DNA of 34,498 nt, from contig CP070685.1 of the NCBI GenBank assembly GCA_020352895.1, positions 2,281,771-2,316,268 on the forward strand, in the 5' to 3' direction. The DNA is from Phycisphaerales bacterium (lineage in GTDB: Bacteria > Planctomycetota > Phycisphaerae > UBA1845 > G020352895). The notes under the pieces were generated by a model that saw only the letters and a program-made list of their open reading frames with translations, searched no databases and was not told the origin of the DNA. Below are positions 11,890-13,110 of this stretch, piece after piece (the first letter of the stretch is position 1; every line of letters begins with the position of its first letter). Made by a program: the position numbers and the translations under genes.

Positions 11890-11906
11890 AACCGCATAAC
11901 CACTGA

Positions 11907-11938
11907 CGGGACCGCCTTTCGGGGCGGTCCCGCTTTTT
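11907..11938 (+). terminator. Strong Rho-independent terminator after flagellin 3
   Basis: A perfect 10-bp stem, CGGGACCGCC (11907-11916) with GGCGGTCCCG (11923-11932), a 6-nt loop, then C and five T residues (11934-11938). It lies 40 nt after the flagellin 3 stop. The mobile element's left terminus begins only 7 nt beyond it. Confidence 0.92.
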
Positions 11939-11944
11939 CTAGCA

Positions 11945-11964
11945 AAAGGGGACATTCTACTTTT
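11945..11964 (-). repeat. Left 20-bp terminal inverted repeat of the RAYT element
   Basis: Exact reverse complement of 12685-12704. It contains GTAG on the - strand and overlaps the last codon and stop of the transposase gene. The identity stops at both edges, so 20 bp is the full extent. Confidence 0.9.
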
Positions 11965-12646
11965 CGCGTGACTTCGCATGGGCTGCCGGTCGCTTACGCG
12001 GCCTACCACGGGGGCGCATGGTGGATTCGAGGCCGAGCCTGGTGGCCACGAGCTTCTGCCAGCGCGGGCTGCCCCAGGGCGTGCCGCGGTTGACACTGTT
12101 CCGCAGAGCCTCCTCTTCCGCCGGGGTCATCGCACGGTTCACCAGTGCCATCCATCGCGGGCCGCGGTCCACCGGCCCGGCGTGCAGGAACGCGGGTCGA
12201 CGACGCCGGCCCCACCACCGCGCGCTCGACCACGCCCAGCCTTCTGCTCGCGCGGTCAGGCCGGCTCGCAACGCGTTGCGCTCCACATAGCGCAGCACGG
12301 TTAAGAGGTGATCATCCTGCTGGATCGGAAAGGCCTTGAAACGTCCCTGCCAGACGTGGCCGCTGCCGTGGTAGTGGCCGTGGTAGCGCCGCACGTGGGC
12401 GGTCAGCAGCCACTGCATGAAGCGACTCAGGTCGCCGTCCTTGCGCGGCCACAGAACCAGGTGGAAGTGATTCGGCATCAGGCAGTAGGCCAGCACGCGG
12501 ACTGCGACTCGCTCGGCCGCTTCGCCGAGCATGACCACGAACGCGTCGTAATCCTGTGGCTTGTGGAAGACTTCGGTCCGCCCGTTTCCGCGGTTGATGA
12601 CGTGGTAGCAGACGCCGCCGGCCGATGCTCGCGCCGTCCTGGGCAT
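11957..12646 (-). CDS. REP-associated tyrosine transposase (RAYT, IS200-like Y1 family)
   Basis: A 229-residue single-strand DNA transposase of the Y1 HUH class, which cuts with a tyrosine and moves or spreads short palindromic or REP sequences. The N-terminus MPRTARASAGGVCYHVINRG matches the R....G..YHV..RGN opening of the family. The metal-binding HUH-type motif is MPNHFHLVLWP (His60 and His62), followed by the RRYHGHYHGSGHVWQGRFKA block. The catalytic tyrosine is most likely Tyr120 in LRYVERNALRAGL, the standard family motif. The C-terminal ~80 residues end in a basic tail (RPRGRPRKRPAAHAKSREK). All catalytic motifs are intact and the frame is unbroken, so it could be active. It is the only - strand gene in the flagellar cluster. 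Confidence 0.92.
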   Translation of the reverse strand: MPRTARASAGGVCYHVINRGNGRTEVFHKPQDYDAFVVMLGEAAERVAVRVLAYCLMPNHFHLVLWPRKDGDLSRFMQWLLTAHVRRYHGHYHGSGHVWQGRFKAFPIQQDDHLLTVLRYVERNALRAGLTARAEGWAWSSARWWGRRRRPAFLHAGPVDRGPRWMALVNRAMTPAEEEALRNSVNRGTPWGSPRWQKLVATRLGLESTMRPRGRPRKRPAAHAKSREK

Positions 12647-12684
12647 GGCCGATTCCTACCCCCTCAACCCCGCCTCGTCAAGGA

Positions 12685-12704
12685 AAAAGTAGAATGTCCC
12701 CTTT
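12685..12704 (+). repeat. Right 20-bp terminal inverted repeat of the RAYT element
   Basis: AAAAGTAGAATGTCCCCTTT, the exact inverted partner of 11945-11964, located 38 nt upstream of the transposase start codon. It contains GTAG. Its outer edge merges with the tandem repeat at 12701-12764. Confidence 0.9.
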
Positions 12705-12764
12705 CTTCCCTTTCTTCCTGTGTCCCCTTTCTTCCTGCCCCTTTCTTCCTGCCCTTTCTTCCTG
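12701..12764 (+). repeat. Short tandem repeat, five copies of CTTTCTTCC(TG)
   Basis: Copies start at 12701, 12710, 12727, 12741 and 12754, so the unit length varies from 9 to 17 nt. The copy at 12721 also repeats TGTCCCCTTTCTTCC, i.e. the outer part of the RAYT right end (12696-12709). The array therefore looks like stuttered copies of the element's tip rather than an unrelated microsatellite. Confidence 0.85.
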
Positions 12765-13110
12765 CGGGCCGGGCTGATCCGTGGGAATGTGTAATCTGCT
12801 TAAAGCATGGCTTCACGCGTGCTCACGGTGTTTGTCCATCAGATCCTGGCCGCGCGCCAGCCGCCGGCCGGTGGTGTCACGCCAGCTCGACCTTCCGCGC
12901 ACAGAACAGACGAGCCCTGGCGCCGGCTACTCGTTCAACGTGGCGGTTCGCAGGCAGGGTCATCACGGGCACAACCGCAGAACGAGAGACGAGGCCACTT
13001 GTTATAGGACGATAAACCCCAGCGGGGGCTTCAGGCGCGGGCTTACAGGTGCCGATATTAGTAAGCGCTGTCTGTATGCGCTGAAACAACGCGGCCCGAG
13101 GAGGTGACGC
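12765..13110 (+). promoter_or_regulatory. fliD leader with sigma-28-like -10 (GACGATAA, 13008-13015)
   Basis: A 346-nt non-coding stretch between the repeat array and fliD. GACGATAA at 13008-13015 matches the sigma-28 -10 consensus at 7 of 8 positions, about 95 nt before fliD; no matching -35 is visible. A GAGGAGG SD at 13099-13105 precedes the GTG start. Open frames across this stretch have no recognisable protein features. Confidence 0.35.

Follow-up and report, generated by a model that had tools for sequence, protein, structure and literature searches.

The window, the whole 34,498-nt stretch of DNA analysed here, belongs to a genome of one contig (G000, 3.6 Mb, estimated completeness about 67%). 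It contains a transposase gene, tnpA, between two inverted repeats (TIRs) and, outside the right-hand repeat, a short array of truncated repeat tips. The neighbours of this element are a flagellin gene on one side and a fliD-like gene on the other, several flagellin-like genes occur in the window, and the element lies directly behind an apparent intrinsic terminator of the flagellin gene (11905-11945). The features of the locus are listed below.

11936-11944: predicted left outer boundary of the element, about 10 nt outside the GGGG at 11948-11951, placed from the family-wide boundary
11945-11964, minus strand: TIR at the 3′ end of tnpA, with the TAG stop codon of tnpA inside (repeat search)
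11957-12646, minus strand: tnpA, Y1/HUH tyrosine transposase of the TIRYT (TnpAREP-like) kind, 229 aa, HUH motif N59-H60-F-H62, catalytic Y120
12653-12681, minus strand: putative tnpA promoter, TTGACG at 12676-12681, 17-nt spacer, TAGGAA at 12653-12658, 6 nt to the ATG
12685-12704, plus strand: TIR at the 5′ end of tnpA, upstream of the promoter (repeat search)
12709-12720, minus strand: truncated tip unit 1, CAGGAAGAAA plus tip GG, adjoining the full TIR, boundary ambiguous by 1-2 nt
12721-12737, minus strand: truncated tip unit 2, CAGGAAGAAA plus tip GGGGACA (read from the sequence)
12738-12751, minus strand: truncated tip unit 3, CAGGAAGAAA plus tip GGGG (read from the sequence)
12752-12764, minus strand: truncated tip unit 4, the outermost, CAGGAAGAAA plus tip GGG (read from the sequence)
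After G at 12765: predicted cut directly outside tip unit 4, placed from the family-wide start position

The initial annotation had described an exact 20-bp inverted repeat whose left copy includes the stop codon of the gene. Indeed, AAAAGTAGAATGTCCCCTTT has exactly two occurrences in the window, on opposite strands at 11945-11964(-) and 12685-12704(+), and the TAG of tnpA falls within the former. The arms match at 20/20 bp (chance expectation with up to 3 mismatches, 0.00) and, when extended, form arms of 28 nt that are 89% complementary. The stop codon is likewise located within the 3′ TIR in 103/159 related elements. The same annotation saw no obvious internal hairpin, which is fair for the window copy, since it can form no more than a weak stem, AAAAG/CTTTT, around an 11-nt loop, although other repeat types of the family form strong hairpins. 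In the window (12653-12681) and in the 159 related elements the tnpA promoter adjoins the 5′ TIR, and only 6-9 nt separate the end of its -10 box from the ATG. TTGAC at most 50 nt from the ATG was present in 69 of the 159 elements compared with 7 in shuffles, mostly 35-38 nt upstream. The short distance from the -10 box to the ATG suggests that the tnpA mRNA may be leaderless. An Rfam search of the element region found no family.

The tnpA product matched Pfam Y1_Tnp (1.8e-15), and N59, H60, H62 and Y120 were invariant across 23 relatives. A profile built from these relatives retrieved the TnpAREP structure 4er8 first (4e-10), and 4er8 was also the best PDB match when the predicted structure (pLDDT 92.9) was submitted to Foldseek, followed by ISDra2 and IS608. 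With regard to the C-terminal HTH-like domain of TnpAY1 subclass 2.1, a Pfam HTH scan of 13 members returned nothing at E ≤ 1; the predicted model is helical at C-terminal residues 165-210. A tnpA relative was present in 48 of the 61 genomes searched (the own genome and 60 of the same order), and a search of a plasmid collection yielded distant relatives only. The own genome also contains a second, more distant Y1_Tnp-like ORF, a 205-codon open frame without the window TIR (L008/L012, C1:1075268-1075456).

The window gene is flanked by TIRs that are not GTAG REPs, the arrangement by which a TIRYT is recognised, and the locus is almost certainly a TIRYT/TIRtron, that is, a Y1 (HUH) transposase gene between inverted repeats. 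The view of a RAYT-like transposase whose inverted ends are not REPs and yet act as a family of repeats was sound, but such ends are not a distinct new RAYT end type. TIR-flanked Y1 transposases (TIRYT/TIRtrons), with GGGGWSAS in some TIRs, were described in 2013 (Di Nocera et al. 2013, PMC3733652), and TIRYTs were assigned mostly to TnpAY1 subclass 2.1, which lacks REP-like structures (Quentin et al. 2018, PMC6006769). The window element is a further example of this known type. It shares with TIRtrons a Y1 gene with closely placed TIRs on either side that carry a GGGG-W motif, a comparable protein size (229 aa; median 238) and repeats elsewhere in the genome, which occur as singles, dimers and clusters in TIRtrons and here as a gene-less inverted pair and a solo copy. 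Its HuH motif, NHFH, fits the subclass 2.1 pattern NHVH or NH[YF]H. It differs in that the window motif GGGGACAT fits 7/8 positions of GGGGWSAS and misses the last S, a motif that TIRtrons do not strictly need, and in that the Y motif is YVERNA (Y-VER-NA) rather than the class-2 Y---NP, while several close relatives have NP. As part of the TIRtron reading, the transposase is predicted to recognise its flanking repeats.

REPtrons, the RAYT/TnpAREP systems with GTAG REPs found in E. coli and Stenotrophomonas, share with the window family the enzyme superfamily, the closest solved structure (4er8) and inverted flanking repeats, and the gene-less inverted pairs found here resemble REPINs/BIMEs. 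The ends had been called GTAG-bearing; however, close relatives have GAGC, GACT, CAGT and others at the GTAG position, so the GTAG is no evidence of a REP-type guide. We rejected GTAG as a guide 5′ of a hairpin because it is not conserved. The match to NCBIfam REP_Tyr_transpos (71.4 bits) is under the equivalog cut-off of 80. What is conserved is instead GG(G/T)G-W-C-A, and only some repeat types of the window family form a stable hairpin. The IS200/IS605 elements (IS608, ISDra2) have the same Y1 HUH catalytic core and fold, but they have no TIRs; the subterminal hairpins that they use are specific to one strand, and guide sequences select the cleavage sites (PMC2817692, PMC8266576). The ends of the window family are symmetrical and inverted, and the cut site is apparently set by distance.

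A genome-wide search for solo and paired copies found five copies of the 15-mer core of the repeat, AAGTAGAATGTCCCC, in the own genome: two form the window pair, two make up a gene-less inverted pair, and one is a solo. The gene-less pair is REPIN/MITE-like and measures 107 bp end to end (L009:950-1075, C1:2758350-2758470). Among the 61 genomes (own and 60 of the same order) the core was present in 16, compared with 0 for the reversed control, in gene-flanking ends, close inverted pairs and solos, and the tnpA genes of relatives are flanked by other TIRs at equivalent places. The core of the 20-mer is thus not peculiar to this locus, nor do relatives have the gene without flanks, as the initial annotation had allowed for. 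Closer inverted pairs, 4-30 nt apart, occur in G047, G031, G043, G055 and G024. Gene-less pairs and solos are presumably mobilised in trans. In genome G005, the sequence common to nine solo copies (L044, L059, L071-L076) is an imperfect palindrome of no more than about 24 nt, (G)AAAAAGGGGACATTCTACTTTTC, as though single TIRs may also spread like REPs. In another genome, G129, one tnpA copy is truncated and a separate TIRYT element sits at that end (L199/L225), i.e. the elements are nested or recombined. Across the family, the conserved TIR features are an A-run, GG(G/T)G, W-C-A and a T-run, with the consensus GG(G/T)G-W-C-A-(G). The hairpin signal was modest (mean best stem 3.91, compared with 3.34 with the inner arms swapped; reached in 2/2000 shuffles), being strong in repeat types L210, L172 and L099 and weak in the window type, and we therefore rejected a conserved hairpin in every TIR.

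Beyond the right end of the window element, the array spans 12709-12764 and reads, on the minus strand, CAGGAAGAAAGGG, CAGGAAGAAAGGGG, CAGGAAGAAAGGGGACA, CAGGAAGAAAGG and GAAGAAAGGGGACATTCTAC..., that is, four truncated units outside the full repeat, each with a constant outer word followed by a tip of differing length. The five CTTTCTTCC copies and the second TGTCCCCTTTCTTCC previously reported at the right tip are all present. The left end of the element carries no tip array.

Near-tandem copies across the outer boundary of the TIR were counted with a scan whose thresholds were symmetric for the outer and inner boundary. In a first set of 198 TIR ends from 101 loci, 32 ends had such a copy, compared with 0/198 inner boundaries and 7/2949 G-run starts outside elements. 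A second and independent set, 51 loci drawn mainly from a different order within the phylum and analysed by a rule fixed before use, gave 13/92 outer ends, 0/92 inner ends and 2/649 control sites. When the sets were pooled, arrays were found at 45/290 ends (about 15%) versus 0/290 inner boundaries and about 0.3% of control sites, in counts where same-lineage elements are not fully independent. The tip array noted in the window is real and non-random, and stutter is specific to the outer side in both locus sets. Most of the genomes are metagenome assemblies, and single-contig genomes carry arrays as well. At 17 ends at least three units were present, again with a constant outer word and differing tips (2 of these 17 are low-complexity), and all array units were head-to-tail. 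Among type-A copies (gene-flanking, paired and solo together) an array was present in only 5/65. A longer stutter was observed upstream of the gene in L017/L087 (genome G043 C184), where the TIR and the promoter region are repeated over tens of bp, as if the copied tract may sometimes run well past the TIR.

Related loci showed the same stutter pattern with other outer words, and this variation by locus argues for separate array events. Variable outer words would also be seen if the element had chosen its target beside pre-existing short tandem repeats, the array then being host DNA. However, each unit includes part of the element's own repeat, from GG to beyond the full TIR, and the window word AGGAAGAAAGGGG is absent from the rest of its own genome; an origin as host DNA, which is very improbable, was rejected on these two grounds.

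The two sides of the repeated unit behaved differently. Over the pooled set of 45 cases, the number of nt preceding the first G (outer part, L) was 9.5 ± 2.3, mostly 6-13, whereas the TIR part, R, was 1-40 nt; the period correlated with R at 0.96 and with L at 0.10, and random placement of the same periods yielded L this narrow in 0/20,000 trials. The start of each unit lies in element-specific sequence, roughly 10 nt from the G-run on its outer side, and the end falls at differing points inside the repeat. Of the 45 junctions, 19 had no overlap, 10 had 1-4 extra nt and 16 had 1-3 shared nt, indicating from the 29/45 junctions without shared nt that microhomology is not required.

These measurements bear on how the array arose. 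The initial annotation had suggested repeated slippage or repeated insertion at the tip; free slippage or full re-insertion is at odds with a start that is near-constant, about 10 nt out, when only the reach into the repeat differs. In replication slippage, a polymerase stalled in the repeat by a hairpin, a TIR-TIR cruciform or a bound protein would restart upstream, with no transposase cut. The repeats are able to pair, with strong hairpins in some types, truncated tips often finish in G-runs, which are easy slippage sites, and 1-3 nt are common to both sides at 16/45 junctions. We nevertheless consider slippage unlikely, since it should shift start and end alike, and in the observed units only the end varies, the start staying near -10. 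Moreover, 29/45 junctions have no shared nt, the inner side of the same repeats shows no stutter, and the unit start coincides with a G preference and with host junctions, as described below.

At position -11, G was present in 147/290 ends (51% versus 27% background, p = 3e-17), and -10 was enriched too. The preference was also seen at ends without arrays, where the frequency of G was 0.50 at -11 and 0.42 at -10. Apart from G, no sequence motif was visible at the unit starts of the 45 cases. The two ends of the same element are alike out to -8 and not farther, and the similarity between type-A copies within one genome drops at about -6. In related genomes sharing one flank, host/element junctions were located at -12, -11, -11, -9, -9 or -6, and -5 from the G-run. 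In the empty-site comparison proposed in the initial annotation, host junctions were mostly 9-12 nt out, but no complete empty site was found and every comparison aligned on one side only. The empty-site search covered L201 and 12 other elements in one genus and gave one-sided homology only. The one-sided alignments indicate that deletions or rearrangements accompany these loci. Rather than at the repeat tip, the mobile DNA seems to stop about 10 nt outside each GGGG, at a site that appears to be measured by distance and to favour G weakly at -11.

A fixed boundary and truncated ends would likewise be predicted by abortive transposition, in which end fragments released by the transposase integrate again and again at the boundary of the element itself, or the end is copied anew when the gap left by excision is partly repaired, and whole repeats do occur within some arrays (L166 3′, L024 5′, L271). 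This explanation requires one orientation and one junction every time, as all units are head-to-tail, and solo truncated tips elsewhere were not noticed, although the search for them was not systematic. We regard it as quite improbable.

We infer from the measured footprint, namely the observed anatomy, a family of repeats, units that start at a fixed point and end at a variable one, a preference for G and host junctions close by, that the arrays probably result from a nick, extension of its 3′-OH and resealing, with this transposase as the presumed agent. The transposase would nick the strand that runs into the element, about 10 nt outside the GGGG, and would keep the inner 5′ end on its tyrosine. 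A polymerase would then extend the outer 3′-OH inward, a variable 1-40 nt into the repeat, and the enzyme would join the extended 3′ end to the held 5′ end, so that each round would add one tandem unit, fixed where it starts and variable where it ends. A fixed start combined with a variable end is the expected product of nicking, variable inward extension and rejoining. In vitro, TnpAREP produces a 5′-phosphotyrosine and a free 3′-OH and then performs strand transfer (PMC8266576). Nunvar et al. 2010 hypothesised that the 3′-OH of a RAYT nick might prime synthesis into the rayt gene (PMC2817692). That model has in common with ours a nick beside the repeat, a 3′-OH that primes into the gene and religation by the enzyme, but it was a hypothesis for REPs/BIMEs, and the arrays are a fitting sequence footprint in another family. 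Against nicking, extension and resealing stand the one of six host junctions at -5, an L that is not perfectly constant, and the restriction of arrays to about 15% of ends. The lower array rate among type-A copies (5/65) and the drop in their similarity near -6, the one-sided empty-site alignments and the large share of metagenome assemblies also count against it.

The same nicks can be given a wider role. TIRYTs might use a replicative route unlike that of IS200/IS605, in which opposite-strand nicks at both ends, each about 10 nt outside the GGGG, would prime inward strand-displacement synthesis, the arrays being aborted and resealed rounds. We put this forward as a speculative and rather unlikely extension of the nick-and-reseal origin.

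In the literature searched, which omitted most subscription journals, we found no earlier description of arrays with a fixed start and a variable end; neither tip arrays nor a boundary near -10 were found in the Di Nocera 2013 and Quentin 2018 papers. To our knowledge, cleavage by RAYT/TIRYT enzymes has been demonstrated for no more than a few of the REP type, and only in vitro. The arrays are a recurring scar on TIRtrons that puts the probable cut site about 10 nt away from the repeat, on its outer side, and they hint that the cut starts DNA copying. That a nick primes synthesis has been a hypothesis since 2010, and the arrays provide a common natural footprint that fits nicking, extension and resealing. 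They predict a distance-based cut site with G and supply exact substrates for a bench test. They also provide a sequence signature for locating the boundaries of elements, and possibly active copies, in genomes.
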